Shown: piece by piece, positions 9,092 to 46,723 of the stretch
How the letters are laid out: every line of letters begins with the position of its first letter
Numbering within the stretch: the stretch's first letter is position 1
DNA from: Actinomadura sp. DC4
GTDB lineage: Bacteria > Actinomycetota > Actinomycetes > Streptosporangiales > Streptosporangiaceae
Direction of reading: 5' to 3'
NCBI RefSeq assembly: GCF_030406325.1
Contig: NZ_JAUEQY010000039.1
Coordinates: 1-64,000 of the forward strand
Length of the DNA: 64,000 nt
Made by a program: the position numbers and the translations under genes
Notes under the pieces: generated by a model
What the model was told of the DNA's origin: nothing
Database searches by the model: none
What the model saw: the letters and a program-made list of their open reading frames with translations, nothing else

Positions 9092-9106
9092 TCCCGGTGA
9101 GTGGAA
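9092..9106 (+). promoter_or_regulatory. TCCCG-type palindrome upstream of hsaG
   Basis: TCCCGGTGAGTGGAA lies about 73 bases before the hsaG start. It matches the recurring imperfect palindrome found at eight other places in this window (consensus TCCCGNTGAGYGAGA). It is a weaker copy, with a G to A change in the right arm. Probable operator; the binding protein is not proven. Confidence 0.5.
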
Positions 9107-9178
9107 CTCCGGTCCCGCGCGCGTCCCCGGCTGGGTCAGGCTGAGGCTGCCGACCAGGGACGCTGTCAGGGAGCCGCG

Positions 9179-10144
9179 ATGAGCAAGACCAAGGTGGCCA
9201 TCATCGGGTCCGGCAACATCGGAACCGACCTGATGATCAAAGTGATACGCCTGTCGGAGACGCTGGAGATGGCCGCGATGGTGGGCATCGACCCGGACTC
9301 CGACGGGCTCGCCCGTGCCGCCCGGATGAACGTTCCGACGACCGCCGAGGGCGTCGACGGGCTGATCGCGATCGACGGGTTCGCCGACATCGAGATCATC
9401 TTCGACGCGACCTCGGCGAAGGCGCACGTCGCGAACGCCGAGCGGCTGGCCCCGTACGGCAAGCGGCTCGTCGACCTCACCCCGGCCGCGATCGGCCCGT
9501 ACGTCGTGCCGCCGGTCAACCTCGAGGAGCACCTGCGGCAGGACGCGCCCGACATCGACAACGTCAACATGGTCACCTGCGGCGGCCAGGCCACGATCCC
9601 GATGGTGTACGCGGTGTCCCGTGTCACACCGGTCCCGTACGCCGAGATCGTCGCCTCGATCGCCTCCAAGTCGGCCGGGCCCGGGACGCGGGCCAACATC
9701 GACGAGTTCACCGAGACCACCGCGGCGGCGGTCGCCGAGATCGGCGGCGCCGGCCGCGGCAAGGCCGTCATCGTCCTCAACCCGGCCGAGCCGCCGCTCA
9801 TCATGCGCGACACGATCTTCTGCCTCATCGGCGACGCCGACCACGAGGCGATCCGCGCCTCGGTCGCCGAGATGGCCGAGCGCGTACGGGAGTACGTCCC
9901 CGGCTACCGGCTCAAACAGCAGGTGCAGTTCACCCCGATCGCCGAGGGCGAGCCCGTGCGGGGGCTCCTGCCCGAGGGCGCGGGCCCGGTGAACACCAAG
10001 GTGACGGTGTTCCTCGAGGTCGAGGGCGCCGCGCACTACCTCCCCGCGTACGCGGGGAACCTCGACATCATGACCTCGGCCGCGCTGCGCACCGCCGAGA
10101 GCATCGCCCGCCGGGCGGACCGGCAGACGGAGGTGGCCCGGTGA
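9179..10144 (+). CDS. hsaG: Acetaldehyde/propanal dehydrogenase (acylating), HsaG
   Basis: A 321-residue acylating aldehyde dehydrogenase that turns the aldehyde released by HsaF into an acyl-CoA with NAD+. The Rossmann start is [20 protein letters not shown], and the catalytic Cys is in [11 protein letters not shown] (near residue 135). The ATG at 9179 is chosen because it begins the canonical [13 protein letters not shown]; the upstream extension of the frame is non-homologous. The stop overlaps the GTG of hsaF, matching the known channelling complex between the two enzymes. In steroid degradation it acts on propanal derived from the ring A fragment; the homologous MhpF acts on acetaldehyde. 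The assignment as Hsa rests on the surrounding steroid genes. Confidence 0.9.
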
Positions 10145-11157
10145 CCAGGGTCTACATCCAGGACGTCACCCTCCGGGACGGCATGCACGCCATCCGGCAC
10201 CGCATCAGCCCGCGCGACGTCGGGCGGATCGCGTCCGCCCTCGACCGCGCCGGCGTCGACGCGATCGAGGTCGCGCACGGCGACGGGCTGGCCGGCAGCA
10301 GCCTCAACTACGGCCCCGGCAGCAACACCGACTGGGAGTGGGTCCAGGCCGTCGCGGACAACGTCGAGAACGCCGTCATCACCACGCTGCTGCTGCCGGG
10401 GATCGGCACGATCGCCGAGCTGACGCGGGCGTACGCGCTGGGCGTCCGTTCGGTACGGGTGGCCACGCACTGCACCGAGGCCGACGTGTCCGCGCAGCAC
10501 ATCGCCAAGGCGCGCGAGCTGGGCATGGACGTCTCCGGTTTCTTGATGATGAGCCACATGGCCCCGGCCGCCGACCTCGCCGCGCAGGCGCGGCTGATGG
10601 AGTCCTACGGCGCGCACTGCGTCTACGTCACCGACTCGGGCGGCCGCCTGACCATGGACGGCGTACGAGAACGGATCCGCGCGTACCGCGACGTCCTGGA
10701 CCCCGCGACCCAGCTCGGCATCCACGCGCACCAGAACCTCTCGCTCGCCGTGGCCAACTCGGTGGTCGCGGTCGAGGAGGGCGTCACGCGCGTGGACGCG
10801 TCCCTGGCCGGGCACGGCGCCGGCGCCGGCAACTGCCCGATCGAGCCGTTCGTGGCGGTGGCCGACCTGCAGGGCTGGGAGCACGGCTGTGACGTCTTCG
10901 CGCTGCAGGACGCCGCGGACGACCTCGTACGGCCCCTGCAGGACCGGCCGGTGCGGGTGGACCGGGAGACGCTCACGCTCGGGTACGCCGGGGTGTACTC
11001 CAGCTTCCTCCGGCACGCCGAGAGCGCCGCCGAGCACTACGGCATCGACGTACGGCAGATCCTCCTGGAGGTGGGCCGGCGCGGCCTGGTCGGCGGGCAG
11101 GAGGACATGATCGTCGACATCGCGCTCGACCTGACCGCCGCGACCACGGGCCCATGA
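10141..11157 (+). CDS. hsaF: 4-hydroxy-2-oxoacid aldolase, HsaF
   Basis: A 338-residue class II pyruvate aldolase of the DmpG/MhpE/HsaF family. It splits 4-hydroxy-2-oxohexanoate (steroid pathway) into pyruvate and propanal. The metal and substrate site begins with [12 protein letters not shown] (Arg-Asp near residue 13). Metal-binding histidines are in [15 protein letters not shown] (near residue 200), and the C-terminal dehydrogenase-contacting region ([19 protein letters not shown]) is intact. GTG start overlaps the hsaG stop; the stop overlaps the next gene's ATG. Length equals the family norm. Confidence 0.92.
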
Positions 11158-13564: not shown

Positions 13565-13604
13565 GGGGTTCAGTCCGCGATGAGGCCCCGCCTCGACCCG
13601 GCTC

Positions 13605-14765
13605 CTAGACGAGGTTGTCCTCGACGGTGAAGCCGAACTCACCGCGGCCGTACATCGCCAGGGCGCGCTCGACGTCGTTGGCGACGTGCACGCCTCCCGC
13701 GTGGGCGTCGCGCCAGGCGCGTTCGATGGGGTTGCCGCGCTTCAGGGAGTTGCCGCCCGCGGTCTTGAACAGGATGTCGATGGCCTCGAGGGCGCGCTCG
13801 GTCCCGCGCACCTGGTCGCGGCGGGTGCGCAGCCGCAGCTCCATCGGGATCTCCTCGCCCGCGGCGGCGCAGGCGTACAGCTCGGCGACGTTGCGGTTGA
13901 GCTGCAGGATCGCCGCGTCGATCTCGGAGGCGGCGCGGGCCACGGCGACCTGGGCGAACTGGTCCTCGGCGAAACGGCCGCCGCCGACGCTGAGGCGGAT
14001 CCGGTCGCGCATCGCCGACAGGTACGCGTCGTAGCAGCCCGTCACCGCGCCGATCACCGGTGCGGTGACGGCCGAAGTGAAGATCGAGGCGAACGGCATG
14101 CGATACAGCGGGGCGGTGTTGACGCGCTGGCCCGGGCCGCGCAGGTGCGCCTGGTCGTGGTTGCGCAGGACGCGATGGTCCGGGACGAAGGCCCGCTCGA
14201 CCACGATGTCGTCGCTGGCGGTCCCGCGCAGCCCGATGACGTCCCAGACCTCCTCGATCGCGTAGTCCGCCCGCGGCACGAGGACCGTGACGAAGTCCCG
14301 GCCCCGCTCCCCCGTCGCCAGGCCGCCGAGCAGGGCCCATGAGGCGTGCCCGCAGCCGGAGGAGAAGCTCCAGTGGCCGGTCAGCTCGTACCCGCCCTCG
14401 GCCGCCGTCAGCCGGCCGGCCGGCGCGTACGAGGACGACACCAGCGTGTCCGGGTCCTCGCCCCACACCTCCCGCTGGGCCCGCTCGTCGAAGAGCGCGA
14501 GCTGCCACGGGTGGACGCCGAGCACGGAGGCGACCCACCCGGTGGAACCGCAGACCCCCGAGATCGCCCGGACGACCTCATAGAAGTGCACCGGGTCGCT
14601 CTCCGCGCCGCCGAAGCGCGCCGGCTGCAGCATCCGCAGCACGCCCGCGGCCGTGAGCTCCTTCATGGTCTCCCCGGCGACGGACCCGCTCGCGTCCGTC
14701 GCCGCCGCCCGCTCGGCGATGCCGGGCAGCAGCGGGCGTACTCGTTCCAGGACCTCGTTCGTCAT
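13605..14765 (-). CDS. HsaA-like flavin-dependent hydroxylase (paralogue 1)
   Basis: A 386-residue protein of the acyl-CoA-dehydrogenase-fold flavin monooxygenases (HsaA/HpaB-C1 group), which need FMNH2 from a separate reductase. Family landmarks: LQPARFGGAESDPVHFYEV, STGWVASVLGVHPWQLALFD, ELTGHWSFSSGCGHASWALL and NPIERAWRDAHAGGVHVAND. The ATG at 14765 starts MTNEVLERV, in register with true HsaA; the frame upstream is non-homologous. It shares a divergent promoter with kshA. It is less like mycobacterial HsaA than the copy at 20291, so it may take a different steroid phenol. A structural relative with another role is possible. Confidence 0.75.
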   Translation of the reverse strand: MTNEVLERVRPLLPGIAERAAATDASGSVAGETMKELTAAGVLRMLQPARFGGAESDPVHFYEVVRAISGVCGSTGWVASVLGVHPWQLALFDERAQREVWGEDPDTLVSSSYAPAGRLTAAEGGYELTGHWSFSSGCGHASWALLGGLATGERGRDFVTVLVPRADYAIEEVWDVIGLRGTASDDIVVERAFVPDHRVLRNHDQAHLRGPGQRVNTAPLYRMPFASIFTSAVTAPVIGAVTGCYDAYLSAMRDRIRLSVGGGRFAEDQFAQVAVARAASEIDAAILQLNRNVAELYACAAAGEEIPMELRLRTRRDQVRGTERALEAIDILFKTAGGNSLKRGNPIERAWRDAHAGGVHVANDVERALAMYGRGEFGFTVEDNLV

Positions 14766-14830: not shown

Positions 14831-14845
14831 TCCCGCCCAGTGGGA
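14831..14845. promoter_or_regulatory. TCCCG-type palindrome in the hsaA-like/kshA divergent promoter
   Basis: TCCCGCCCAGTGGGA, arms TCCC/GGGA, lies 43 bases before kshA and 66 before the divergent HsaA-like gene. Its reverse complement (TCCCACTGGGCGGGA) differs by one base from the site in front of hsaE. Placed between the two genes, it could control both. Confidence 0.55.
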
Positions 14846-14887
14846 CCTGGGGCCGGGCCCCGCGCTCGCGCCCGTAGCGTGCGGTAC

Positions 14888-16054
14888 ATGACCACAGCCC
14901 CCGAGAGCGGAGTCCGCGCGATCGAGGCCGCAGCGACACCCACACGCTTCGCACGCGGGTGGCACTGCCTGGGCCTGGCCGAGAGGTTCCGCGACGGAAA
15001 GCCGCATTCCATCCACGCCTTCGGGCAGAAGCTGGTCGTCTTCCAGGGCGGCGACGGCAGGCTCAACGTCCTCGATGCCTACTGCCGGCACATGGGCGGC
15101 GACCTGTCCCAGGGCACCGTCAAGGGCAACGAGATCGCCTGCCCCTTCCACGACTGGCGCTGGGGCGGCGACGGGCGGTGCAAGCAGATCCCCTACTCCC
15201 GCCGTGTGCCGCTGCGGGCTCGTACGGCGGCCTGGCCCACGCTCGACCAGGACGGCATGCTGTTCGTCTGGAACGACCCCGAGGGCAGACCTCCGCGCGA
15301 GGAGGAGGCCCTGCCGCGGATCGAGGGCGCGCTCGACGACGAGTGGACCGACTGGCTCTGGTACGAGACCGTCGTCGAGACGAACGTGCGCGAGGTCATC
15401 GACAACAACGCCGACATGGCGCACTTCTTCTACGTGCACCTGACGTTCCCGACCTACTTCAAGAACATCTTCGAGGGCCACATCGCGGCGCAGTACATGA
15501 ACGGGAAGGCCCGCGAGGACGCCCGTCCCCGTCTCCCCGAGGGCAGCCCGCAGCTGATCGGCAACTCCTCGGTGGCCGCCTACTACGGGCCCTCGTTCAT
15601 GACGGACGAGATCACCTACAACTACGACCGCATGGACGTCCGTACGACGCTCATCAACTGCCACTATCCGATCGACGCGAACTCCTTCGTCCTGCAGTAC
15701 GGGATCATCGTCAAGAAGCAGGACGGCCTGGACGAGGAGGCGGCAATGGAGGTCGCCAAGACCCAGGCGATGTACGTCAAGCGCGGTTTCGAGCAGGACG
15801 TCCAGATCTGGAAGAACAAGGCCCGCATCGACAACCCGCTGCTGTGCGAGGAGGACGGGCCGGTCTACCAGCTGCGGCGGTGGTACGAGCAGTTCTACGT
15901 CGACGTCGCCGACATCGAGCCGGAGATGGTGGAGCGGTTCGAGTACGAGCTCGACACCACCAGGCCGAACGAGGTGTGGGAGAAGCAGGTCCAGGACAAC
16001 CTCGCCGCCAAGGCGGCCGCGAAGGCCACCGAGGGCAAGGCCCCGGTCGCGTGA
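14888..16054 (+). CDS. kshA: 3-ketosteroid 9-alpha-hydroxylase, oxygenase component
   Basis: A 388-residue Rieske mononuclear-iron oxygenase. Together with KshB it 9-alpha-hydroxylates androsta-diene-dione-type steroids, which triggers ring B opening. The Rieske ligands are CRHMGG (near residue 66) and CPFHDWRWG (near 87). The mononuclear iron motif is DNNADMAHFFYVH (near 175), followed by long substrate-pocket beta strands. Length matches mycobacterial KshA (386). ATG at 14888 is chosen because it precedes conserved sequence closely and sits just after the divergent promoter. Its stop overlaps the GTG of the small downstream gene. Confidence 0.95.
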   Translation: MTTAPESGVRAIEAAATPTRFARGWHCLGLAERFRDGKPHSIHAFGQKLVVFQGGDGRLNVLDAYCRHMGGDLSQGTVKGNEIACPFHDWRWGGDGRCKQIPYSRRVPLRARTAAWPTLDQDGMLFVWNDPEGRPPREEEALPRIEGALDDEWTDWLWYETVVETNVREVIDNNADMAHFFYVHLTFPTYFKNIFEGHIAAQYMNGKAREDARPRLPEGSPQLIGNSSVAAYYGPSFMTDEITYNYDRMDVRTTLINCHYPIDANSFVLQYGIIVKKQDGLDEEAAMEVAKTQAMYVKRGFEQDVQIWKNKARIDNPLLCEEDGPVYQLRRWYEQFYVDVADIEPEMVERFEYELDTTRPNEVWEKQVQDNLAAKAAAKATEGKAPVA

Positions 16055-17818: not shown

Positions 17819-17833
17819 TCCCGTTGAGCGAGA
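17819..17833. promoter_or_regulatory. TCCCG-type palindrome, copy proximal to the FAD dehydrogenase
   Basis: TCCCGTTGAGCGAGA, 41 bases before the minus-strand flavoprotein start. It matches the window-wide consensus TCCCGNTGAGYGAGA exactly. Confidence 0.6.
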
Positions 17834-17881: not shown

Positions 17882-17896
17882 TTTCACTCATCGGGA
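17882..17896. promoter_or_regulatory. TCCCG-type palindrome, copy proximal to hsaB
   Basis: TTTCACTCATCGGGA on the plus strand, that is TCCCGATGAGTGAAA on the minus strand. It lies 67 bases before hsaB and 63 bases (centre to centre) from its sister copy at 17819, about six helical turns, in opposite orientation. Two copies in one divergent promoter would suit cooperative binding. Confidence 0.6.
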
Positions 17897-17962: not shown

Positions 17963-18514
17963 ATGAGCGTCACGACCTCGCCGGGTAAGGAGACCGGTCC
18001 GTCCCCGCAGGAGATGCGCCGGGCCATGGGCGCCTTCGCCAGCGGGGTGACGGTCGTCGCCGGCATCGACGGCGGCGAGCCGGTCGGCTTCGCGTGCCAG
18101 TCCTTCGCCAGCGTGTCCCTCGAACCGCCGCTGATCCTGTTCTGCGCCGACCACCGGGGCCGCTCCTGGCCCCGGATCCGCCCGGCGGGCCGGTTCAACG
18201 TCAGTGTGCTGGCCGAGGGCCAGGACGAGGTCTGCACGCGGTTCGGGTCCGGGCAGGGCCGCAAGTTCGAGGACCTCGCCTGGCACGCCTCGCCCTGGGG
18301 GACGCCGGTCATCGAGGGCGTGCTGCTGCGGGTGGAGTGCGTGGTCCACGACGTGCACGTCGCCGGCGACCACGACGTGGTGATCGGCCGCGTCCTCGCC
18401 GTCGACGCGCCCGGCGAGGAGGCCCAGCCGATGATCTTCTTCCGCGGCGGGTTCGGGCTCGGCCCCGCCGTCGCGGCGCCCGAGCTGTGGGGCTGGGGCG
18501 ACCACTGGGGCTGA
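17963..18514 (+). CDS. hsaB: Flavin reductase component of the 3-HSA hydroxylase, HsaB
   Basis: A 183-residue flavin reductase (HpaC/DIM6 family) that supplies reduced FMN to HsaA. Family landmarks: MRRAMGAFASGVTVVAG (near residue 16), CQSFASVSLEPPLILFCAD (FMN loop) and the terminal GFGLGP region. ATG at 17963 follows GGAGGCGGAGAC at good spacing; an ATG six codons upstream (17945) is possible, but its ribosome site is only one base away. It is the only reductase of this kind in the window and would have to serve all three HsaA-type oxygenases. It stands in its own transcription unit. Confidence 0.9.
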   Translation: MSVTTSPGKETGPSPQEMRRAMGAFASGVTVVAGIDGGEPVGFACQSFASVSLEPPLILFCADHRGRSWPRIRPAGRFNVSVLAEGQDEVCTRFGSGQGRKFEDLAWHASPWGTPVIEGVLLRVECVVHDVHVAGDHDVVIGRVLAVDAPGEEAQPMIFFRGGFGLGPAVAAPELWGWGDHWG

Positions 18515-19343: not shown

Positions 19344-20267
19344 TCAGCCGGAGCGGGGAACGAAGGCGGCCAGGGGCTCCGAGCCCGACCAGTCGTGGCC
19401 CCAGTACGAGTCGGAGCTGATCTCCTCGGCCGTGTAGTGGCTCTCGTCGACCCGCAGGCCGTCGGTGCCGTACTCGATGTCCCACCCGCCGGGAGCGCGC
19501 ACGTAGAAGGAGATCATCTTGTCGTTGGTGTGCCGTCCGAGCGTCGAGGACAGCGAGAAGCCGGCCTTGCCGATCCGGTCCAGGGCGCGTCCCACGGCGT
19601 CGAGCGAGTCGACCTCGACCATCATGTGGATCAGGCCGGGCGCGCCGCCGTGCGGCGCCGGGCAGATCGCCAGGCTGTGGTGGCGCTCGTTGACCCCCAT
19701 GAACCGGATCCGCGGCGCCGTGCCGTCCCGGCCCGCCGCGCCCACCTTCATGGCGCCGCGCGGGAGGAAGCCCAGCACGTCCGTGTAGAAGGCCACGGTC
19801 TCCTCCAGGGCCGTGGTGGGCAGCACCACGTGGCCCAGGCCCTGCCCGCCGGTCACGAACCGCTGGCCCAGGGAGCCGACCACCGGGGAGTGGTCCAGCA
19901 CCGGGCCGAAGAAGACCTCGACGGGCACGCCCGCGGGGTCGAGAAAGGTGACCGCCTGCTCGACCCGGCGGTCGGCGCACTCGGCCGCGGGCAGGGGCTT
20001 CACCGCGACCCCGGCGGCCTCCACGGCGGTGCTCACCGCGGCGAGACCGAACTGGTCGCGGACCTCCCAGCCCACCGACAGCACCTGGTCGGTCTCCCCC
20101 GGCAGCACGACGACCCGCGCGGACCGCTCGTCCATCCGCAGGTAGAGCCCGCCGGGGACCGGTCCGGTCCCCTCGGCGAAGCCCAGCGCCTCGACGGTCA
20201 GCTCGCGCCACCGCGCGAGGTCGGTCGCCTGCACTCTGAGGTAGCCCAGGCCGCGGATATCGCTCAT
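19344..20267 (-). CDS. hsaC: 3,4-DHSA extradiol (meta-cleavage) dioxygenase, HsaC
   Basis: A 307-residue two-domain vicinal-oxygen-chelate dioxygenase that cleaves the catechol 3,4-DHSA between C4 and C5 using Fe(II). The N-terminal domain begins IRGLGYLRVQATDLARWREL. The C-terminal catalytic domain carries His in GLGHVVLPT (near residue 148), His in LIHMMVEV (near 218) and Glu in GWDIEYGTDG (near 268), the 2-His-1-Glu iron triad. NERHHSLAI is also conserved. Length equals mycobacterial HsaC (300). It follows hsaA by 23 bases and so receives its product from the neighbouring enzyme. Confidence 0.95.
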   Translation of the reverse strand: MSDIRGLGYLRVQATDLARWRELTVEALGFAEGTGPVPGGLYLRMDERSARVVVLPGETDQVLSVGWEVRDQFGLAAVSTAVEAAGVAVKPLPAAECADRRVEQAVTFLDPAGVPVEVFFGPVLDHSPVVGSLGQRFVTGGQGLGHVVLPTTALEETVAFYTDVLGFLPRGAMKVGAAGRDGTAPRIRFMGVNERHHSLAICPAPHGGAPGLIHMMVEVDSLDAVGRALDRIGKAGFSLSSTLGRHTNDKMISFYVRAPGGWDIEYGTDGLRVDESHYTAEEISSDSYWGHDWSGSEPLAAFVPRSG

Positions 20268-22564: not shown

Positions 22565-24247
22565 CTACGCGATCCGCTCGGAGTCGGCCGGCGCCGCGGC
22601 GCGCGCGGCGGCGTGCCGCGCCGCGATGTAGCCGAAGACGATGGACGGGCCGATCGTGCCGCCGGGTCCGGGGTAGTCGTTGCCCATGACCGAGGCGGTG
22701 GTGTTGCCGGTCCCGTACAGGCCCTCGATGGCCGAGCCGTCCGGGCGCAGCACGCGGGAGTTCTCGTCGCACACGAGCCCGCCCTTGGTGCCCAGATCCC
22801 CGGCCTCCACCCGGATCGCGTAGAACGGGCTCTTCTCGATCACGTCGAGGGTGGGGTTGGGCAGGGTCGGGTCGCCGTAGTAGCGGTCGTAGGCGCTGTC
22901 GCCGCGGCCGAAGTCGGTGTCCTTCCCGTCGCGGGCAAAGCGGTTGAAGCGCTCGACGGTCGCGGTCAGCGCGCCGGCGGGCACCCCGATCCGGCCGGCG
23001 AGCTCTTCGAGCGTGCCGGCCCGGTACATGACGCCGCCGTCGTAGAAGGACCGGTGGAACTCCGCGCCCGGCAGCACCTGGGCGAACGGGTAGCGCGCCC
23101 GCGCCGTGGCGTCCATCACGAACCACAGGGGCACGTGCCCGCCGTCGAGCTGGTCGTGCACGAAGTTCACGTACGGGGCCGCCTCGTTGGTGAACCGCTC
23201 CCCGGTCCGGCCCGAGACGATGACCGAGCGCGGGATCGACCGTTCGGAGACCAGCGGGATCACGGCGCCGGACGGGTGCCGTACGGATGGCATCCACCAC
23301 GCGTCGTCCATCAGGTCGACGGCCGCGCCGAGTGCGCGGCCGGCCAGGATGCCCTCGCCGGTGTTGCCGGGCGCGCCGCCGCTGACGTCGGCCTGGCCGC
23401 CCTCGGGCAGGTACTCGCGCCGCATCTCGGCGTTGTGGTCGAAACCGCCGCTCGCCAGCAGCACGCCGTGCCGGGCACCGATGCGCGTCGGCCGGCCGTC
23501 CCGTTCGACGACGACGCCGCGTACCGTCCCGTCCTCGACGACGAGCTCGGTCATCGGCGTCTCCAGCCACAGCGGGACGCCCGCGTCCCTCACGGCCAGC
23601 CGCAGCCGGGTGACGAGCGCGCGCCCGGTCGCGGCCATGTGCCGGCGCCGCACGAGGTTGGTGGAGACCCGCCAGGCCGCGACGACCGATGCCCCGCGGC
23701 CCCGCCACGTCCGCTTGACCATCGCCAGGTCGTGGTAGTTCCGTGCCGTGATCCACAGGCCGAGCGGGCCCTTCAGCCCGTTCCGCGGCAGGGTCGCCTC
23801 GTCCTCCCCGAGCTTTCGGGTGTCGACGGGCAGGGCCTCGATCGAGCGTCCCAGGGGGCTGCCGCCCTCGACCTCGGGGTGGTAGTCCGGGTAGCCCTTC
23901 ACCCAGGCGAACCTCATCCAGCGGTTCTTCTCCAGCAGCTCCAGCGCCGGCGGGCCCTGGTCGACGAACGCGTCGATCCTGGCCTCGGGCACCTTTCCCT
24001 CGGTGAGCCGGCGAAGGTAGGTCCGGATGGTCTCCCGGTCGTCGCCGCGTCCCTTGCGGCGCAGGGCCGGGTTGTCCGGCACCCAGATTCCGCCGCCGGA
24101 CAGCGCGGTCGTCCCGCCGAAGTGCCGGCTCTTCTCGACGATCAGGGTGTCGAGTCCCACGTCGACCGCGGCCAGCGCGGCGGCCATGCCACCGCCGCCG
24201 CTGCCCACGACGAGGAAGTCCACCTCGCGGTCCCAGTCTGCGCTCAT
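22565..24247 (-). CDS. kstD: 3-ketosteroid delta-1-dehydrogenase, KstD
   Basis: A 560-residue FAD enzyme that introduces the C1-C2 double bond into 3-ketosteroids. N-terminal FAD motif VDFLVVGSGGGGMAAALAAV and SRHFGGTTALSGGGIWVP are typical. Mid-region DDAWWMPSV and the C-terminal YPGPGGTIGPSIVFGY carry the catalytic Tyr and Gly known in Rhodococcus KstD. Length is within the KstD range (about 510-565). ATG at 24247 precedes the FAD motif closely; an upstream in-frame start adds 15 non-conserved residues. First gene of kstD-kshB-hsaA-hsaC-SDR, with an exact palindrome operator 45 bases upstream. Confidence 0.93.
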   Translation of the reverse strand: MSADWDREVDFLVVGSGGGGMAAALAAVDVGLDTLIVEKSRHFGGTTALSGGGIWVPDNPALRRKGRGDDRETIRTYLRRLTEGKVPEARIDAFVDQGPPALELLEKNRWMRFAWVKGYPDYHPEVEGGSPLGRSIEALPVDTRKLGEDEATLPRNGLKGPLGLWITARNYHDLAMVKRTWRGRGASVVAAWRVSTNLVRRRHMAATGRALVTRLRLAVRDAGVPLWLETPMTELVVEDGTVRGVVVERDGRPTRIGARHGVLLASGGFDHNAEMRREYLPEGGQADVSGGAPGNTGEGILAGRALGAAVDLMDDAWWMPSVRHPSGAVIPLVSERSIPRSVIVSGRTGERFTNEAAPYVNFVHDQLDGGHVPLWFVMDATARARYPFAQVLPGAEFHRSFYDGGVMYRAGTLEELAGRIGVPAGALTATVERFNRFARDGKDTDFGRGDSAYDRYYGDPTLPNPTLDVIEKSPFYAIRVEAGDLGTKGGLVCDENSRVLRPDGSAIEGLYGTGNTTASVMGNDYPGPGGTIGPSIVFGYIAARHAAARAAAPADSERIA

Positions 24248-24291: not shown

Positions 24292-24306
24292 TCCCGATGA
24301 GCGAGA
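24292..24306. promoter_or_regulatory. TCCCG-type palindrome between kstD and the third hsaA-like gene
   Basis: TCCCGATGAGCGAGA, an exact consensus copy, lies 45 bases before kstD (minus) and 110 before the HsaA-like/IclR transcript (plus). Its position in the promoter that may drive the iclR gene itself would fit autoregulation. Confidence 0.6.
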
Positions 24307-25611: not shown

Positions 25612-26460
25612 GTGACCCAGGAGAGTTCGGGCGGGTCCGCCCCGCCGTCGATGATCGAGCGGATGACGCTGATCATGGAGGCGTTCGGCGACCGTTCCGC
25701 GCGGCTGCGGCTGGATGAGATCGCCGCCTGTACCGGGCTGCCCCGGTCGACCTCCCACCGCATCCTCGAACAGCTCGTGCGCCTGGGCTGGCTGCGGCAC
25801 ACGCAGGGCGGGTACGCGCTGGGCCAGCGGGCGCTGCAGCTCGGCGGGTCGGTCAGCGACCACGCGGAGGTACGCGCCGCCGCCGTCCCCCTCCTGGAGG
25901 AGCTGCACGCCAACACCGGGAAGATCATCCACCTCGGCATCCTCGACTTCGCGGACGTCGTCTACCTCGACAAGATCGGCGGGAAGGGCGCTGCGGCGCT
26001 GCCGTCGCGCGTCGGCGGGCGCGCCCCCGCGCACGCCGTCAGCCTGGGCAAGGCGATGCTCGCCTGGCTGCCGCCCGAGGAGGCCGACACCCTCCTCGAA
26101 GGCGGCATGAAGGCCCGTACCCACAACACGATCACCAACCTGATGGTGATGCACCAGGAGCTGCGCCGGATCCGTGGCCGGCACGGGCTGGCCTTCGAAC
26201 GCGACGAGTACGTCGTCGGCATCTCGTGCGTGGGCGCGGCCGTACGGGGGCCGGACGGCGCGGTGGCGGGGATCTCGCTGTGCGGCGAGACCAGCGCCGG
26301 GCCGCTGGACCGCTACGCCCCGCTCGTGCTCGACGTCGCCAAGCGCATCTCGCTGCGGTTGTTCCCGGAGACCTCGCCGGACGACATGCCCTCGACCGTG
26401 TGGTCGGACGGGATGATGGAGCGCATCCTCAGTCTCCTCGACGACGACACTCTGATGTGA
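25612..26460 (+). CDS. IclR-family transcriptional regulator
   Basis: A 282-residue regulator. The N-terminal winged helix-turn-helix runs from MIERMTLIMEAFGDRSARLR with the recognition segment IAACTGLPRSTSHRILEQLV (residues about 39-58). The C-terminal IclR ligand-binding domain includes GKIIHLGILDFADVVYLDKI, PAHAVSLGKAMLAW and VVGISCVGAAVRGPDGAVAG. GTG at 25612 is the furthest plausible start; ATG at 25651 is an alternative just before the HTH. It is embedded in the steroid cluster behind an hsaA-like gene. IclR proteins bind short palindromes, so it is the best local candidate to bind the TCCCG-type sites; this is inference. Confidence 0.85.
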   Translation: MTQESSGGSAPPSMIERMTLIMEAFGDRSARLRLDEIAACTGLPRSTSHRILEQLVRLGWLRHTQGGYALGQRALQLGGSVSDHAEVRAAAVPLLEELHANTGKIIHLGILDFADVVYLDKIGGKGAAALPSRVGGRAPAHAVSLGKAMLAWLPPEEADTLLEGGMKARTHNTITNLMVMHQELRRIRGRHGLAFERDEYVVGISCVGAAVRGPDGAVAGISLCGETSAGPLDRYAPLVLDVAKRISLRLFPETSPDDMPSTVWSDGMMERILSLLDDDTLM

Positions 26461-29292: not shown

Positions 29293-29307
29293 TCTCACTC
29301 AACAGGA
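29293..29307. promoter_or_regulatory. TCCCG-type palindrome between the kstD paralogue and an NTF2-fold gene
   Basis: TCTCACTCAACAGGA on the plus strand (TCCTGTTGAGTGAGA on the minus strand), 42 bases before the minus-strand kstD paralogue and 64 before the plus-strand gene. One base of the left arm departs from consensus. Confidence 0.55.
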
Positions 29308-30498: not shown

Positions 30499-30522
30499 TT
30501 TGTTTGTCGTTCGATAATCAAA
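30499..30522. promoter_or_regulatory. Operator repeat, copy 2, oxidoreductase side
   Basis: The 16-base repeat (30499-30514) extends here into an imperfect 24-base palindrome of the form TTTGnTTnTCGnnCGAnAAn followed by CAAA. It ends 15 bases before the oxidoreductase ATG. Probable TetR operator. Confidence 0.6.
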
Positions 30523-31551: not shown

Positions 31552-32397
31552 CTACTTCCTGGTCAGGAAGGCCAGGACGACGCTCTCCCAGGCGTCCTTC
31601 TGCTCGATCATCGCCCAGTGGCCGCAGTCGGGGAAGACGTGGAGCTCGGCGTCCGGGATGGTGCGCATCGGCACGATCGCCATGTCGAGCGGGCTGACCC
31701 GGTCGTCGCGGCCCCACGTGATGAGGGTCTTGGCGGTGATCTTGTGCAGCATCGCCCAGTACGGCGGGACGTCTCCGGGCGGGCGGGCCGCCATCGCCTT
31801 GCGGCCGTACATGCGGCGGGCGCTCGCCAGCGTGGCCGGGTCGGTGGCCTGGGTCCAGCGCTCCTCGATCAGCTCCTCGGTGATCAGGGCGGGGTCGTGG
31901 ACCATGGAGTTCAGCCACTGGACGAGCCGCTCGCGGGTGGGGTCCTCGGTGAACTCCACCAGCAGCCGGATGCCCTCGCTCGGGCCGGGGCTGAACAGGT
32001 TGCGGCCCACGCCGCCGATCGTCACCAGCCGCCGTACGCGGTCGGGCTGGGCGCTCGCGACCTGGGCGGCGACGATGCCGCCCATGGAGTTGCCGATGAC
32101 GTCGACCTGCTCCAGCCCGAGCTCGTCGAGGAAACGGATCACGGACTCGGGGGCGGCGACCATCGGGTGCCGGTCGGTCGGGTCACTGACGCCGAAGCCG
32201 GGGAACTCCAGGACCATGCAGTGGAACCACTCGGCGAACACCGGGAGGTTCCCCCGGAAGTTGCGCCACCCGGTCACGCCGGGGCCCGAGCCGTGCAACA
32301 TCAGCAGCGGCGGGCCGTCGCCGGCCTCGTGGTAGCGCAGCGTTCCCTTGTCCGTCCGCAGTTCACGCAGCGTGGAGTCGTGGTTGAGTTCCGCCAT
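31552..32397 (-). CDS. hsaD: 4,9-DSHA hydrolase (meta-cleavage product hydrolase), HsaD
   Basis: A 281-residue alpha/beta hydrolase that cuts the C-C bond of the ring A meta-cleavage product, giving HIP precursor DOHNAA and a dienoate. LHGSGPGVTGWRNFRGNLPV forms the oxyanion region. Nucleophile Ser is in GNSMGG (near residue 103), acid Asp in WGRDDRVSPLDM (near 231) and His in DCGHWAMIEQ (near 259). ATG at 32397. It shares a divergent promoter containing an exact palindrome site with an SDR gene. Its partner HsaC is 11 kb away but carries the same type of operator. Confidence 0.94.
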   Translation of the reverse strand: MAELNHDSTLRELRTDKGTLRYHEAGDGPPLLMLHGSGPGVTGWRNFRGNLPVFAEWFHCMVLEFPGFGVSDPTDRHPMVAAPESVIRFLDELGLEQVDVIGNSMGGIVAAQVASAQPDRVRRLVTIGGVGRNLFSPGPSEGIRLLVEFTEDPTRERLVQWLNSMVHDPALITEELIEERWTQATDPATLASARRMYGRKAMAARPPGDVPPYWAMLHKITAKTLITWGRDDRVSPLDMAIVPMRTIPDAELHVFPDCGHWAMIEQKDAWESVVLAFLTRK

Positions 32398-32469
32398 CGT
32401 CGACCTCAGCTCCTCCGCGAACGTGTTGCGGGCACGTTAACCGGGACCGGGTACGGACGGCCGCGATCA

Positions 32470-32484
32470 TCCCGATCAGCGAGA
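32470..32484. promoter_or_regulatory. TCCCG-type palindrome in the hsaD/SDR divergent promoter
   Basis: TCCCGATCAGCGAGA, one base from consensus, 73 bases before hsaD and 43 before the SDR. Strong candidate operator for both genes. Confidence 0.6.
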
Positions 32485-33301: not shown

Positions 33302-34084
33302 CTACTTGAACGTCAGCGAGACGGAGCCGAGCCCGGTGAAGTCGGCGGTGAAGGTCTGCCCGCGCGCCGCGTCGATCGCCCGGGTGCACGACCCGGGCAG
33401 CACCACGTGCCCCGCGTGCAGGCGGACGCCGAAGGAGGCGACCTTGCGGGCCAGCCAGGCGACCGCGATGACCGGATCGCCCAGCACCGCGTCGGAGCGG
33501 CCGGCGACGACGAACTCGCCGTCGCGGCGCAGCGTGGCCTCGATCGCGGTCAGGTCCAGGCCGGCGGGCGGCACGCCCTCCCCGATCACGTAGCCGGCCG
33601 AGGAGGCGTTGTCGGCGATGGTGTCGGCGAGCTTGATGCGCCAGTCGGCGATCCGGCTGTCGATGAGCTCGATCGCCGGGACGACGCGTTCGGTGGCGGC
33701 GAGCACGTCGGCCTCGGTGCAATCCTCACCGGGCAGGTCCGCGCCGAGCACGAAGCCGACCTCGACCTCCACGCGGGGGTAGCAGTAGCGGTCGGCGGCC
33801 ACCGGCTCGTCCTGACGCAACGCCATGTCGGCGAGCAGGTGGCCGTAGTCGGGCTCGTCCACGCCCATCATCTGCTGCATCGCCTCGGACGACAGCCCGA
33901 CCTTGTGCCCGTTGACGGCACCACCGGCCGCGAGACGACGCCGGATGTTGACGAGCTGGATCTCGTAGGCGTCCACCGCGTCGATGTCCGGATGGGTCTC
34001 GGTGAGCGGGGGAATCGGCGCCCGCTCCCGCTCGGCGGCCCGCAGCCGATCGGCGATCTCCACGCGCTGTTCCTCGGTCAGCAT
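33302..34084 (-). CDS. hsaE: 2-hydroxypenta/hexa-2,4-dienoate hydratase, HsaE
   Basis: A 260-residue hydratase of the MhpD/HsaE family (FAH-superfamily fold). It adds water to the dienoate released by HsaD, giving the substrate of aldolase HsaF. Recognisable blocks: NGHKVGLSSEAMQQMMGVDE (near residue 58), PRVEVEVGFVLGADL with metal-binding Glu residues (near 105), and VVPAIELIDSRIADW (near 138). Length matches the family. hsaF and hsaG are 23 kb away in the window but carry the same operator type. Confidence 0.92.
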   Translation of the reverse strand: MLTEEQRVEIADRLRAAERERAPIPPLTETHPDIDAVDAYEIQLVNIRRRLAAGGAVNGHKVGLSSEAMQQMMGVDEPDYGHLLADMALRQDEPVAADRYCYPRVEVEVGFVLGADLPGEDCTEADVLAATERVVPAIELIDSRIADWRIKLADTIADNASSAGYVIGEGVPPAGLDLTAIEATLRRDGEFVVAGRSDAVLGDPVIAVAWLARKVASFGVRLHAGHVVLPGSCTRAIDAARGQTFTADFTGLGSVSLTFK

Positions 34085-34125: not shown

Positions 34126-34140
34126 TCCCACTGGCCGGGA
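34126..34140. promoter_or_regulatory. TCCCG-type palindrome upstream of hsaE
   Basis: TCCCACTGGCCGGGA, 42 bases before the hsaE start. It has arms TCCC/GGGA and is nearly identical to the reverse complement of the kshA-promoter site. Confidence 0.55.
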
Positions 34141-35258: not shown

Positions 35259-35287
35259 CGCGTGGCCTCCTCTGCTAGATTCCTTCT

Positions 35288-35301
35288 AACAAATGTTTGG
35301 T
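35288..35301. promoter_or_regulatory. KstR2-type operator between the SDR and echA20
   Basis: AACAAATGTTTGGT fits the pattern AnCAAAnnTTTGnT, that is the published KstR2 motif AnCAAGnnCTTGnT with G and C changed to A and T. It lies 29 bases before the SDR and 14 before echA20, and recurs in front of fadE31. A wider block (TTCTAACAA-TGTTTGGT) is shared by both sites. Confidence 0.7.
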
Positions 35302-35315
35302 GGAAAGGTAGCACT

Positions 35316-40489: not shown

Positions 40490-41287
40490 TCAGGGATGCT
40501 GGCTGGACACGGAGACGACCTCCCCGGTCAGGTACGAGGAGTAGCCGCTCGCCAGGAACACTATGACGTTGGCCACCTCCCACGGCTCGGCGGACCGCCC
40601 GAACGCCTCGCGGGCGGTCAGCTCCTCCAGCACCTCGGGTGAGGTGACCTTCACCAGATGCGGGTGCATCGCGAGGGACGGCGCGACCGCGTTGACGCGC
40701 ACGCGGTAGTCCGCCGCCTCGAGTGCCGCGCACCGGGTCAGCGCCATCACGCCCGCCTTGGCGGCGGCGTAGTGCGACTGGCCGCGCTGGGCCCGCCAGC
40801 CGACGACCGAGGCGTTGTTGACGATCACGCCGCCGTCGTCCTGGCGCCGCATCGCCCGCAGGGCCGCGCGGGTGCAGCGCATCGTGCCGTTCAGCGTGAC
40901 GTCCAGGACGCGGTCCCACTGGTCGTCGGCCATGTCCACCAGGTCGGTGGTGCCGCCCAGGCCGGCGTTGTTGACCGCCACGTCGATGCGGCCGAACCTG
41001 TCCAGCGCCGCGTCGTACAGCGCCCGTACCTGCTCGTCGGAGGTGACGTCGCAGGGCCGCGCGGCGACCCGCTCCGCGCCGAACTCCGCGGCCAGCGCCT
41101 CCCGCGACGCCTCCAGCCTCCGCTCGTGCGCGTCGCTGACGAACACGCGGGCGCCCTCTTCGAGGCAGCGGCGGGCGGTGGCTCCGCCGATGCCCGCCCC
41201 GGCCGCCGCGGTGATCACCACGACGTCGTCGCGAAGGAGTCCGTGCGCGGGAACGGGAGGCGGGGCCCCCTTCTGCTGTTCCGTCAC
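40490..41287 (-). CDS. ipdF: 5-OH-HIP-CoA dehydrogenase SDR, IpdF
   Basis: A 265-residue SDR. ITAAAGAGIGGATARRCLEE is an unusual cofactor loop shared with mycobacterial IpdF (Rv3559c), as are NNAGLGGTTDLVDMADDQWD, NNASVVGWRAQRGQSHYAAA and the C-terminal SSYLTGEVVSVSSQHP. Catalytic Ser, Tyr and Lys are in NNASVVGW and SHYAAAKAG. The reaction known for IpdF is oxidation of the 5-hydroxyl of HIP-type CoA thioesters. First gene of ipdF-kstR2-fadA6, with the KstR2-type box 13 bases upstream. Confidence 0.9.
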   Translation of the reverse strand: MTEQQKGAPPPVPAHGLLRDDVVVITAAAGAGIGGATARRCLEEGARVFVSDAHERRLEASREALAAEFGAERVAARPCDVTSDEQVRALYDAALDRFGRIDVAVNNAGLGGTTDLVDMADDQWDRVLDVTLNGTMRCTRAALRAMRRQDDGGVIVNNASVVGWRAQRGQSHYAAAKAGVMALTRCAALEAADYRVRVNAVAPSLAMHPHLVKVTSPEVLEELTAREAFGRSAEPWEVANVIVFLASGYSSYLTGEVVSVSSQHP

Positions 41288-41299
41288 GTCGGTTACTCT

Positions 41300-41313
41300 A
41301 CCAAACAGTTGTT
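41300..41313. promoter_or_regulatory. KstR2-type operator between ipdF and fadE31
   Basis: ACCAAACAGTTGTT fits AnCAAAnnnTTGnT and is one base from the inverted copy at 35288 across the wider 17-base block CCAAACA-TTGTTAGAA. It lies 13 bases before ipdF and 15 before fadE31, close enough to block both promoters. Confidence 0.7.
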
Positions 41314-41327
41314 AGAAAGAAGGCCTC

Positions 41328-42458
41328 ATGGACCTGGATTTCGGCCCCGCCGAGGAGGAGTTCCGCGCCGAGACGCGCGCCTGGCTGCACGAGCACGTGC
41401 CGGCCGAGCCGCTGCCGTCGCTGGAGACCGAGGCGGGCTTCGCCGCACACCGGCAGTGGGAGCGCACCCTGGGCGAGGCCCGGCTGGTGGCGGTGTCATG
41501 GCCCGAGGAGTACGGCGGCCGCGGCGTGACCCCGCTGCAGTGGCTCGTCTTCGAGGAGGAGTACTACGCCGCGGGCGCGCCCGGGCGGGTCAACCAGAAC
41601 GGCACCGACCTGCTCGCCACCACGCTCTTCCGTCACGGCACGCCTGAGCAGCTCGCGCGGATCCTGCCGCCGATCGCGGCCGGCGAGGTGATCTGGGCGC
41701 AGGCGTGGTCGGAGCCGGGGGCGGGCAGCGACCTGGCCGGGCTCCGCTCGACCGCCACCCGCGCCGACGGCGGCTGGCTGCTCCACGGGCAGAAGACCTG
41801 GAGCTCGCGGGCGCCCTTCGCCGACCGGGCGTTCGGGCTGTTCCGCTCCGACTCCGAGGCCGGCCGGCACCGGGGCCTGACGTACGTGATGTTCCCGCTG
41901 GACGCCGAGGGCCTGACCGTACGGCCGATCGGCCGTCTCGACGGCAAGCCCGCGTTCGCCGAGCTCTTCTTCGACGGAGTGTTCGTGCCCGACCACGAGG
42001 TCATCGGGACGGCCGGCGAGGGCTGGACCGCCGCGATGAGCACGGCGGGCAACGAGCGCGGGCTCACGCTGCGGCCGCCGGGGCGGTTCATGGCCTCGGT
42101 CGACCGGCTGGCGGCACTGTGGCGGGAGCGGGCCGACCCCTCCGACTCCGCGCTGCGCGACCGGCTCGCCGACATCTGGATCCGGTCGCGGGCGTACCGG
42201 CTCAAGGGCTTCGAGACGATCTCCCGCGAGGAGGACGTCGGCATGGAGGCCAGCCTGACCAAGGTGTTCTGGTCGGAGCTGGACGTGGCGCTGCACGAGA
42301 CCGCGCTCGACCTGCTCGGCCCGGACGGCGAGCTGGACTCGCCCTGGCTGGAGGGCTACGTCTTCTCGCTGGCCGGGACGATCTACGCGGGCACGAACGA
42401 GATCCAGCGGAACGTCATCGCCGAGCGGCTGCTCGGCCTGCCGAGGGGAGCACGGTGA
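41328..42458 (+). CDS. fadE31: Acyl-CoA dehydrogenase subunit, FadE31
   Basis: A 376-residue acyl-CoA dehydrogenase-type flavoprotein. WAQAWSEPGAGSDLAGLRST (FAD/substrate), WLLHGQKTWSSRAPF, RSDSEAGRHRGLTYVMFPLD and TKVFWSELDVALHETALDLL follow mycobacterial FadE31 closely. At the position of the MCAD catalytic Glu (YEGT) it has YAGTNEIQ, so the base must come from elsewhere or the partner. In mycobacteria FadE31 pairs with FadE32 or FadE33 as a heterotetramer, and a short partner gene follows here with GTGA overlap. Acts on a HIP-derived CoA ester. Confidence 0.88.
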   Translation: MDLDFGPAEEEFRAETRAWLHEHVPAEPLPSLETEAGFAAHRQWERTLGEARLVAVSWPEEYGGRGVTPLQWLVFEEEYYAAGAPGRVNQNGTDLLATTLFRHGTPEQLARILPPIAAGEVIWAQAWSEPGAGSDLAGLRSTATRADGGWLLHGQKTWSSRAPFADRAFGLFRSDSEAGRHRGLTYVMFPLDAEGLTVRPIGRLDGKPAFAELFFDGVFVPDHEVIGTAGEGWTAAMSTAGNERGLTLRPPGRFMASVDRLAALWRERADPSDSALRDRLADIWIRSRAYRLKGFETISREEDVGMEASLTKVFWSELDVALHETALDLLGPDGELDSPWLEGYVFSLAGTIYAGTNEIQRNVIAERLLGLPRGAR

Positions 42459-44999: not shown

Positions 45000-45009
45000 G
45001 GACGCCCTT

Positions 45010-46665
45010 TCAGGGGAGGAAGCGGTGGCGGCCGTTCGCGGCGAACTCCTCGCGCAGCGCCGCCTTGTCTTCGGGGGTCATCAGCGCGTACTCGGGCGCG
45101 CCGCGGCCGGCCCAGCGGTACACCGGGTCGGTGGTGCGCCAGCCCTCGACCTGCACCTGGCTGCGGCCGACCTTGCCCGAGCCGGTGGTGGGCAGGGCGT
45201 GGGAGACGCGTACGAAGCGCGGGGCGCCCTTGGTGCCGAGGTCGGCCTGGCGGGCCAGGAAGGCCGCCAGGCCGAGGTCGTCGAAACCGGTGCCCTCCGG
45301 CACCTCGATCGCCGCCATCACCTGGTCGCCCGACCGGGGGTCGGGCACGCCGAACGCGACGGCGTCGATGACCTTCGGGTGCCGGCGCAGCGCCGCCTGG
45401 GTCGGCAGCGCGGAGATGTTCTCTGAGTCCACCCGGATCCAGTCGCCCGAGCGGCCCGCGAAGTACAGGAAACCGGCGGTGTCGACGTAGCCGAGGTCGC
45501 CGGTCCAGTACCAGCCGTGCCGGACCCGCTCGGCGTCGGCCTCGGGGTTGTCGTAGTAGCCCTCGAACCGGGCCGCGCCCTCGACGTCGACGATCTCGCC
45601 GACGGCCTCCTCGGCGTTGGCCACCCGGCCGTGCTCGTCCAGGACCGCGCGGGCGCAGGTCTCCCGCGTCCGCGGGTCGACGATCCGCACGCCCTCGCGC
45701 GCGGGACGGCCGAGCGCGGCGGGCGGGGTGTCCTGCGGCCGTACGATCATGCCCGCGCTCTCGCTGGAGCCGTACCCCTCCATCAGCCGGCAGCCGAAAC
45801 GGCGCTCGAACGCGGCCTGGTCCTCCGGGGAGGCCTCGGTGCCGAACGCGTGGGTGAGCGGGTTGTCGCCGTCGCCGGGCCGCTCCGGCGTCGCCAGGAC
45901 GTAGGCGACGGCCTTGCCGACATAGGAGAAGAACGTCGCGCCGAAGTAACGTACGTCCGGCAGGAAGCCCGTCGCGGAGAAGCGCGGGGTGAGCGCGACG
46001 GTCGCCCCGGCGACCAGCGCCGGCGCCCACAGCGCCATCAGCGCGTTGCCGTGGAACAGCGGCATCGGGCAATAGCAGACGTCGTCGCGCGTGACGTCGT
46101 ACTTGGCGCTCATGACGTGCGCGCGGTCGGCGAGCCTGCCCTGTGAGCACCGGGCCGCCTTGGACGCGCCCGTGGTCCCGGAGGTGAACAGCAGCAGCAT
46201 CTGCGTGGCCGCCGTGATCGAGGGGTCGCGTACGGGCTCGCCCGCGTGCCCGGCGACCCGCGCGGCGTAGGCGTCGTCGTCCACGAGCAGGAACCGGCCG
46301 GGCGGGACGCCGACGTCCAGCCCGTCCAGCAGCGCCAGCCCGGGCCGGTCGGTGACCAGAAGCTGGAGGTCGGTGTGGCGTACCTCCTGTTCGAGGTTCG
46401 CGCCGCGCCGGGTGGAGTTGACGCCGACGACCGTGGCACCGCCGAGGGCCGCCGCGCCGAGCCAGAAGACGTACTCGGCGACGTTGTCGAGCAGGACGCC
46501 GACGTGGAACGGGCCGTCCCGGCGCAGCTCCGCCGCCAGCGAGGCGCGCGCCGCGCTCTCGCGTACGACCTCGTCCCACGTCCAGTCCCGCTCGCGGGTC
46601 CGCAGCCCCGGCCGCCCGTCGCCGAGCCGGTCGAGCAGCAGATCCGCGATGGTGTCGTGCGTCAT
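45010..46665 (-). CDS. Acyl-CoA synthetase, FadD17-like
   Basis: A 551-residue AMP-forming ligase. ATP motif [20 protein letters not shown] (near residue 157), YCPMPLFHGNALMALWAPAL, adenine motif EGYGSSESAGM (near 293), and YWTGDLGYVDTAGFLYFAGR then GDWIRVDSENI. The C-terminal catalytic Lys is in TTGSGKVGRSQ. The shape and VGVLLDNVAEYVFWLGAAAL recall FadD17, a KstR-regulon ligase that activates steroid side-chain acids. It carries the TCCCG-type box 44 bases upstream, linking it to the ring A/B genes rather than KstR2. Substrate not readable. Confidence 0.75.
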   Translation of the reverse strand: MTHDTIADLLLDRLGDGRPGLRTRERDWTWDEVVRESAARASLAAELRRDGPFHVGVLLDNVAEYVFWLGAAALGGATVVGVNSTRRGANLEQEVRHTDLQLLVTDRPGLALLDGLDVGVPPGRFLLVDDDAYAARVAGHAGEPVRDPSITAATQMLLLFTSGTTGASKAARCSQGRLADRAHVMSAKYDVTRDDVCYCPMPLFHGNALMALWAPALVAGATVALTPRFSATGFLPDVRYFGATFFSYVGKAVAYVLATPERPGDGDNPLTHAFGTEASPEDQAAFERRFGCRLMEGYGSSESAGMIVRPQDTPPAALGRPAREGVRIVDPRTRETCARAVLDEHGRVANAEEAVGEIVDVEGAARFEGYYDNPEADAERVRHGWYWTGDLGYVDTAGFLYFAGRSGDWIRVDSENISALPTQAALRRHPKVIDAVAFGVPDPRSGDQVMAAIEVPEGTGFDDLGLAAFLARQADLGTKGAPRFVRVSHALPTTGSGKVGRSQVQVEGWRTTDPVYRWAGRGAPEYALMTPEDKAALREEFAANGRHRFLP

Positions 46666-46708
46666 GGTCGCCGACGCTAGCCAGGCGCACGCCCTTACGG
46701 CCGCAGCG

Positions 46709-46723
46709 TCCCGCTGACCGGGA
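46709..46723. promoter_or_regulatory. TCCCG-type palindrome upstream of the fadD17-like gene
   Basis: TCCCGCTGACCGGGA, the most symmetric copy (arms TCCCG/CGGGA). It lies 44 bases before the FadD start and just inside the 37 bases after the LamG gene stop, hence between two same-strand genes. Confidence 0.6.

Follow-up and report, generated by a model that had tools for sequence, protein, structure and literature searches.

A conserved palindrome at the promoters of ring A/B steroid degradation genes in Actinomadura sp. DC4 and its probable use by a neighbouring IclR-family activator

The window examined in this work, viz. the whole stretch of 64,000 nucleotides at positions 1 to 64,000 of contig NZ_JAUEQY010000039.1 (assembly GCF_030406325.1) of Actinomadura sp. 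DC4, carries a cluster of genes for the opening of rings A and B of steroids (kshA, kstD-type and hsaA-G genes), a gene for an IclR-family regulator, and nine copies of a 15-base pair palindrome, which forms the subject of this report (Table 1). Genes in the window were called with our own codon-usage script, trained on the window itself (72% G+C), and named with NCBIfam and Pfam models; by these calls, 9.2% of the window is intergenic. The nine sequences, which an initial annotation of this DNA had placed in intergenic regions upstream of steroid genes, were all confirmed with respect to their positions and strands, each of them occurring once, and our own gene calls agree with their placement. 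Five of the stretches that bear sites (those at 14831, 17819/17882, 24292, 29293 and 32470) are flanked by divergent gene pairs.

If the palindrome were a chance motif, then it should be equally common elsewhere in this genome, and this is not the case. In a scan of the window with a matrix constructed from the nine sites, eight of them occupied the top eight positions, and the ninth (34126) ranked 12th, being preceded also by two coding places (28159 and 42364) and one uncalled stretch (5414). In leave-one-out scoring, the site at 34126 was again weak with 7.6 bits, and that at 14831 scored 12.8 bits. A symmetrised matrix based on 26 sites from other genera placed the nine sites at ranks 1-9 of the 63,986 window positions, a ranking that is partly circular because the 26 sites came from scans with the nine-site matrix and had been retained for their -10 hexamer. 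Matrices with permuted columns gave, at the same cut-off, a mean of 0.27 intergenic matches (60 permutations, maximum 3) versus the nine real ones. The exact pattern TCCCGNTSAGYGRRA is present in 7 places in the 10.67-Mb genome, 6 of which are inside the window, and the looser pattern TYYCRNYSRNYGRRA in 132 places, including 10 in the window (about 0.8 expected pro rata), viz. eight of the nine sites and two coding places. A loose palindrome (TCNCGNTSANCGNGA with one mismatch allowed) matches 1705 places genome-wide and is useless as a genome scan. Based on the pattern counts, the permuted matrices and the intergenic bias in 80 loci described below, a chance origin of the motif is ruled out.

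The conservation of the sites was examined in two sets of relatives. The first is a panel of 200 genomes of the same family; the second consists of 80 named loci, the best 80 of 413 relatives in a profile search of genome contigs with an alignment of the IclR protein. The named loci are anchored on the IclR gene, share genomes with the family panel, and span Nocardioides, Rhodococcus, Prescottella, Streptomyces, Geodermatophilus, Blastococcus, Saccharopolyspora, Microbispora and other genera. For the 32 panel genomes with hsaD, 30 hsaD loci were obtained, and a site is present at -78 to -96 of hsaD in all 30; the other two genomes (G041 and G216) also carry a site before hsaD. Two or more sites are present in 27 of the 30 loci, and hsaB was called next door in 25. 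Similarly, 61 of 62 hsaD promoters in the named loci, a set that overlaps with the panel, carry a site. In these loci, the sites are found 271 times in intergenic and 19 times in coding DNA, versus 2.7 intergenic matches with permuted matrices, and an intergenic site is present in 72 of the 80; these counts include two loci of lower G+C content in which our gene caller fails (L197 and L207, called 62% and 95% intergenic). The IclR proteins of two genomes of the same genus are 94% and 90% identical to that of the window, and those of seven more family genomes, each belonging to another genus, are 55-58% identical. In six of these seven, the gene order is unlike that of the window, yet sites are found at hsaB/hsaD, and in some cases at hsaC, hsaE or kshA. 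Thus, the orthologous promoters of close relatives as well as of other genera have retained the motif.

The enzymes behind these sites are the same as those under the control of KstR in mycobacteria and rhodococci, and in the textbook account ring A/B steroid genes are controlled by the KstR repressor. However, KstR is a repressor of the TetR family with a different operator, and no KstR box is present before the ring A/B genes of the window. The initial annotation's description of the palindrome as unlike the KstR box, and as marking ring A/B promoters, is supported; its statement that no KstR box was seen holds for these promoters, but one full match of TnnAACnnGTTnnA is present in the window, inside gene 239-1111 and distant from the ring A/B promoters. 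In addition, the core AACnnGTT occurs at 32420, in the stretch that separates hsaD from its neighbour, where the outer bases of the box are missing. The box TnnAACnnGTTnnA was found at none of the 30 panel and none of the 62 named-locus hsaD promoters, and based on its absence from these and from the window promoters, KstR is ruled out as their regulator.

The main clue to the mechanism, which the initial annotation had missed, is a fixed distance between the site and the promoter. When the hsaD promoters were aligned on the site, a hexamer TANNNT was seen to be conserved about 31 nucleotides downstream. The analysis was extended to 69 sites (63 of them intergenic) in 12 regions, the 40-kb region of G022, which has no sites, being left out. 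TANNNT starts 29-32 nucleotides past 40 of the 69 sites (mean after shuffling 1.5, maximum 7 in 1000 runs), and YANNNT is present at the same offset for 51 of the 69 (4.9 expected). In the named loci, whose genomes are partly shared with this set, there are 116 TANNNT hexamers at offsets 30-32 versus 41 over the other 61 offsets. No -35 element was recognisable, as no column exceeded 53% in the 22 nucleotides before the hexamer when all promoters were aligned. In the case of kshA (14888), hsaE (34084), the kstD-like gene 16318-17778 (17778) and casI (46665), an ATG is present only 6-8 nucleotides past the hexamer, and due to this the mRNAs of these four genes are predicted to be leaderless. 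A start 6-7 nucleotides past the hexamer would place the site at about -57 to -43, which is an activator's place. Along with the fixed spacing and the fact that no -35 could be recognised, this position suggests that the genes are activated, in contrast to their repression by KstR.

A candidate for such an activator is encoded within the cluster itself. The protein of gene 25612-26460 contains both the DNA-binding domain (PF09339, 46.5 bits; cut-off 22) and the effector domain (PF01614, 113.5 bits; cut-off 24) of the IclR family. The consensus core of group-1 IclR operators is YCR-N5-YGR (PMC8222616), and this core is present in 8 of the 9 window sites and in 59 of the 63 intergenic sites of the 12 regions. 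The outer bases seen here (TCC/GGA), however, differ from those of the types listed in that work, and the words steroid, cholest and Streptosporang are absent from its main text. In the family panel, 32 genomes carry hsaD (E<1e-140), 34 carry the IclR orthologue (E<1e-80) and 31 carry both, with cut-offs that were chosen after viewing the match lists. In three genomes, the IclR gene is present and hsaD is not, and the genome with hsaD that lacks the orthologue (G216) carries a 42% identical IclR homologue 8 kb away, with the same sites and spacing. The mean motif number is 8.8 in the 34 genomes with the IclR gene and 2.9 in the 166 without it, whereas a reversed-pattern control gave 0.76 and 0.69, respectively. 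Kinship among the genomes was taken into account in part, by a test within the nine genera that show both states (26 and 37 genomes), where the motif numbers are 8.3 versus 3.1 (permutation p about 1e-5). The best-scoring NCBIfam model for the window protein is that of the PcaU/PobR/PcaR subfamily (TIGR02431), which comprises regulators of ring cleavage, activators among them, although by this model it is not a member of the subfamily (125.8 bits versus the curated cut-off of 284.75).

Compared with the matrix ranking, four lines of evidence are less circular, viz. the intergenic placement in the 80 loci, the orthologous position before hsaD, the co-occurrence with the IclR gene and the -10 spacing. 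Based on these results, we consider it rather probable that the IclR-family protein uses the nine sites as its operators and that it activates the ring A/B genes; the regulon is real and widely conserved, and an IclR activator is its probable regulator. From the sequences we infer that an IclR dimer, or a pair of dimers, would bind the palindrome TCCCRNYSRNYGGGA, the downstream end of which lies 28-31 nucleotides before the -10 hexamer YANNNT, and that the operator, spanning about -57 to -43 relative to the predicted start, would stand directly upstream of a promoter in which no -35 is recognisable. In response to a signal from the steroid pathway, the bound protein would help RNA polymerase, and kshA, the kstD-type genes, hsaA-G and the side-chain CoA ligase would be switched on jointly.

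The initial annotation regarded the motif as new-looking, and this is not borne out. A study of 2020 on Nocardioides simplex VKM Ac-2033D had already predicted this palindrome, under the name Lcin1 (TCCCGGT[C/G]ACCGGGA), for lithocholate-induced genes; there it precedes the hsaEGF operon as well as genes of the cholate-type cluster E, a kshA among them (PMC7593942). The site at 46709 differs from Lcin1 at one base, and those at 34126 and 14831 at more. As in the Lcin1 regulon, hsaG, hsaE and kshA of the window carry sites, and Nocardioides loci have such sites (e.g. TCCCGATCACCGGGA and TCCCGTTGACCGGGA) beside an IclR gene. Unlike what is described in the accessible part of the Lcin1 account (PMC7593942), which gives no promoter spacing, the sites in the present case cover nearly all ring A/B genes, are linked to an IclR gene and stand at a fixed distance from the -10 hexamer. 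In Rhodococcus jostii, the cholate genes respond to cholate and not to cholesterol, and knowledge of this regulation is described as limited in the relevant part of a review (PMC8399759); for Rhodococcus ruber, an iclR gene is listed among steroid genes with no regulatory claim in the accessible text (PMC6498646). In the open-licence PMC literature, no earlier report of the IclR assignment, the activator-like architecture or the breadth of the system was found. Hence, what is new is the assignment to IclR, the promoter architecture and the spread, the motif itself having already been published once.

A number of observations weigh against the proposal that the IclR protein acts as an activator at these sites. 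With regard to the promoters, TANNNT is missing at the predicted distance from 29 of the 69 sites, and even YANNNT from 18; no hexamer is found at this offset before hsaA3-iclR (right of 24292) or before SDR gene 32527 (right of 32470). Further, when the hsaD promoters alone are aligned, some columns between the site and the hexamer are conserved (e.g. +5 at 87%, +28 at 80%), and these promoters may, due to this, contain a cryptic element in the -35 region. With regard to the link with the IclR gene, the 40 kb around this gene in G022 are devoid of sites (hsaD of this genome, 26 kb away, has a site), in G137, which is among the three genomes with the IclR gene but not hsaD, the gene is beside an hsaA1 homologue with no site in 20 kb, and 8 of the 80 named loci are without any site. 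At E<=1e-50, there are 57 genomes with an HsaD relative, of which 35 have an IclR relative, many of the matches in the other 22 being hydrolases of 38-45% identity. In addition, the contrast in motif number is not seen in genus g6 and is small in g23 and g96. Lastly, the sites before iclR in other genera are mostly without the -10 spacing (one in L229 has it), and the autoregulation of iclR may thus be by repression.

This last observation, and the fact that many IclR-family proteins are repressors, can also be read to mean that the IclR protein binds all of these sites as a repressor, from which it is released by a steroid intermediate, similar to KstR. However, a site that precedes the -35 region at a fixed distance from the -10 hexamer, in a promoter whose -35 is not recognisable, is common among activators but uncommon among repressors, and we regard general repression as unlikely, though it deserves to be kept in view. 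Published work provides further points against an IclR protein as the binder of the palindrome, and in favour of a TetR-type regulator, i.e. either the "KstR3" of cholate clusters or the TetR protein encoded at 29801-30427. In the part of the Lcin1 report that concerns us, the regulator was left open and KR76_18060, a KstR3 orthologue, was tentatively named, and the KstR motif was also found in cluster E of Nocardioides simplex (PMC7593942); the review cited above places a KstR homologue within the cholate cluster of R. jostii (PMC8399759), and in Mycolicibacterium neoaurum KstR3 is, in the accessible text, the name of a TetR/AcrR repressor (PMC10398937). However, TetR genes related to KstR, KstR2 or TetR 29801 are present in only 19 of the 80 loci (which are IclR-anchored), the gene for TetR 29801 is preceded by a separate direct repeat (read by eye), the palindrome conforms to the group-1 core of IclR operators, and its number follows the IclR gene, all of which make a TetR-type binder very improbable. 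If the "KstR3" of the cholate clusters should be the IclR protein itself, then this explanation would merge with that of an IclR operator. Finally, that the palindrome is an extended sigma-factor element of the promoter and no operator, as its fixed distance to the -10 hexamer might indicate, is ruled out on spacing and is scarcely credible, since the gap of about 28-31 nucleotides far exceeds the -35 to -10 spacer of about 16-19 nucleotides, the element is palindromic, and its number follows an IclR gene.

The preference for an IclR activator at the ring A/B genes should not be interpreted as showing that KstR has no place in this organism. The initial annotation's proposal of a regulator different from KstR stands in so far as the IclR protein is the best candidate, but KstR is not simply absent from the genome. 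A TetR protein encoded on contig C25 is a KstR homologue (PDB KstR, E 1.2e-30; Pfam TetR_C_20), and its gene lies about 9 kb from genes for a steroid 3-ketoacyl-CoA thiolase and two P450s with KstR-like boxes; intergenic boxes of this kind are present in the host genome outside the window. KstR-type boxes number 34 genome-wide versus 23 for a control pattern, and relatives of the C25 protein are found in 177 of the 200 family genomes, many of them without hsaD, so that a steroid role for this homologue is likely at most. With a KstR homologue and KstR-like boxes elsewhere in the genome, the work looks divided between regulators, and TetR proteins of the KstR and KstR2 types are probably in charge of other parts of steroid or lipid degradation in this organism. 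The KstR2-type protein is encoded in the window, by the TetR gene at 39837 (PDB 4w97, E 1.2e-52), which adjoins the ipd genes for C/D-ring degradation. The mycobacterial KstR2 box (AnCAAGnnCTTGnT) has no match in the window, though this KstR2-like gene is present there, and the ipd promoters (35258-35316 and 41221-41328) carry no IclR palindrome. A second palindrome (CCAAACANTTGTTAGAA), which is also present in G006, was found at 35284-35300 (minus strand) and 41301-41317 (plus strand), before both ipd-type gene runs, and it may be the KstR2 box of this lineage, differing from the mycobacterial one. The direct repeat noted above for TetR 29801-30427 (TTTGTTTGTCGTTCGA, at 30443-30458 and 30499-30514) lies between this gene and a quinone-oxidoreductase-like gene at 30556, and is perhaps the operator of this TetR protein.

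The coordinates of the sites and of the genes behind them are given in Table 1. One gene name of the initial annotation needs correction, in that the "FadD gene" behind the site at 46709 encodes a steroid-22-oyl-CoA synthetase of the CasI type (973 bits versus a cut-off of 900). The cluster contains three HsaA-type oxygenases (13605-14765, 20291-21475 and 24416-25588) and three KstD-like dehydrogenases, and this multiplicity suggests that several steroid substrates are used.

Table 1. Palindrome sites, genes behind them and the candidate regulator in the 64,000-nucleotide window. Offsets are in nucleotides (nt) from the site to the -10 hexamer; bit scores refer to the naming models.
Feature	Position	Strand	Remarks
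Palindrome site	9092..9106	+	Before hsaG-hsaF-fadD3-like-echA; CAGGCT at -10 position; identical 15 bases before hsaG in G006
Palindrome site	14831..14845	+	Between hsaA1 (-) and kshA (+); TAGCGT at 14875-14880, ATG at 14888
Palindrome site	17819..17833	+	Serves kstD-like gene 16318-17778 (-); TACTTT at offset 29, ATG 6 nt on
Palindrome site	17882..17896	-	Serves hsaB (+); TACGGT at offset 31
Palindrome site	24292..24306	+	Between kstD560 gene run (-) and hsaA3-iclR (+); TTACGT at -10 position, kstD side only; identical 15 bases in G004 and G006
Palindrome site	29293..29307	-	Between kstD514 (-) and small gene 29371 (+); the only one of the nine without the YCR-N5-YGR core
Palindrome site	32470..32484	+	Before hsaD (-), also upstream of SDR 32527 (+); TANNNT at offset 31, hsaD side
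Palindrome site	34126..34140	+	Before hsaE (-); weakest of the nine by the nine-site matrix; TAGCGT at offset 30, ATG 6 nt on
Palindrome site	46709..46723	+	Before casI/fadD19-type ligase (-); TAGCGT at offset 30, ATG 8 nt on
IclR-family regulator, candidate binder	25612..26460	+	Pfam HTH_IclR and IclR_C; orthologues co-occur with hsaD and the motif
hsaA1	13605..14765	-	HsaA equivalog, 631 bits (cut-off 450)
kshA	14879..16054	+	Pfam KshA_C, Rieske; true start probably ATG 14888
hsaB-like flavin reductase	17963..18514	+	179 bits, below cut-off of 230
hsaC-like extradiol dioxygenase	19344..20267	-	345 bits, below cut-off of 450
kstD-like gene heading the kstD560-kshB-like-hsaA2-hsaC run	22565..24247	-	Only a general FAD-binding model above cut-off; 653 bits for 3-oxosteroid 1-dehydrogenase model (cut-off 788)
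hsaD-like hydrolase	31552..32397	-	280 bits, below cut-off of 400
hsaE-like hydratase	33302..34084	-	HpaH 260 bits, 2-oxopent-4-enoate hydratase 240 bits; both below cut-off
hsaG + hsaF	9179..11157	+	Acetaldehyde dehydrogenase and 4-hydroxy-2-oxovalerate aldolase; both above cut-off

Some related elements were also observed outside the window. Past its end, the same contig (C44, 64001-89359) has no site at the cut-off. Among the matches listed for the rest of the host genome, 15 high-scoring places were picked by hand; 13 of these are coding and 2 intergenic, and, as regards a wider regulon, the neighbours of the latter two match no gene of the window. One intergenic site outside the window (G000:C29:96416-96430) has TANNNT at offset 31 and lies before a gene of unknown function. 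The host genome also encodes a paralogous IclR protein (38% identity; L069 on G000:C28, 10151-10954), and the gene run to which its gene belongs is headed by two palindromes of the types TTCC-N7-GGAA and TTTC-N7-GGAA, about 2.7 kb away at about 13584-13687, which may represent a related operator with other outer bases. In four further loci (L227, L229, L230 and L231), hsaD paralogues of 56-62% identity are found near other, more distant IclR homologues (38-49% identity), and in three of these (not in L227) similar palindromes are present at the same -10 spacing; the recurrence of this design in distant pairs is a hint that the pairing of hsaD with IclR is old. In a search of plasmids, 14 records with IclR homologues were found (best 53%), and the one region inspected has no hsa genes by name.

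The degradation of steroids by actinobacteria serves the making of steroid drugs as well as the removal of hormones and bile acids from the environment, and the current picture of its regulation consists mainly of two TetR repressors, viz. KstR and KstR2. A conserved IclR activator of ring opening, if confirmed, would explain the gene sets that lack KstR sites, and it would provide the orphan Lcin1 motif with an owner. One can, tentatively and with considerable doubt, go further and propose that the general switch for rings A and B in most steroid-degrading Actinomycetota is an IclR activator which is inherited together with the hsa genes and senses a ring intermediate, with three regulators per cell. 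If this were true, then the work would be split three ways, with uptake and the side chain under KstR-type proteins, rings A/B under IclR and rings C/D under KstR2-type proteins, and the control of the mycobacterial hsa genes by KstR would be a special case. An IclR activator at these promoters would be a system of a familiar kind, found in a setting that is both new and useful, and strain engineering as well as steroid biosensors would gain a positive control point from it.

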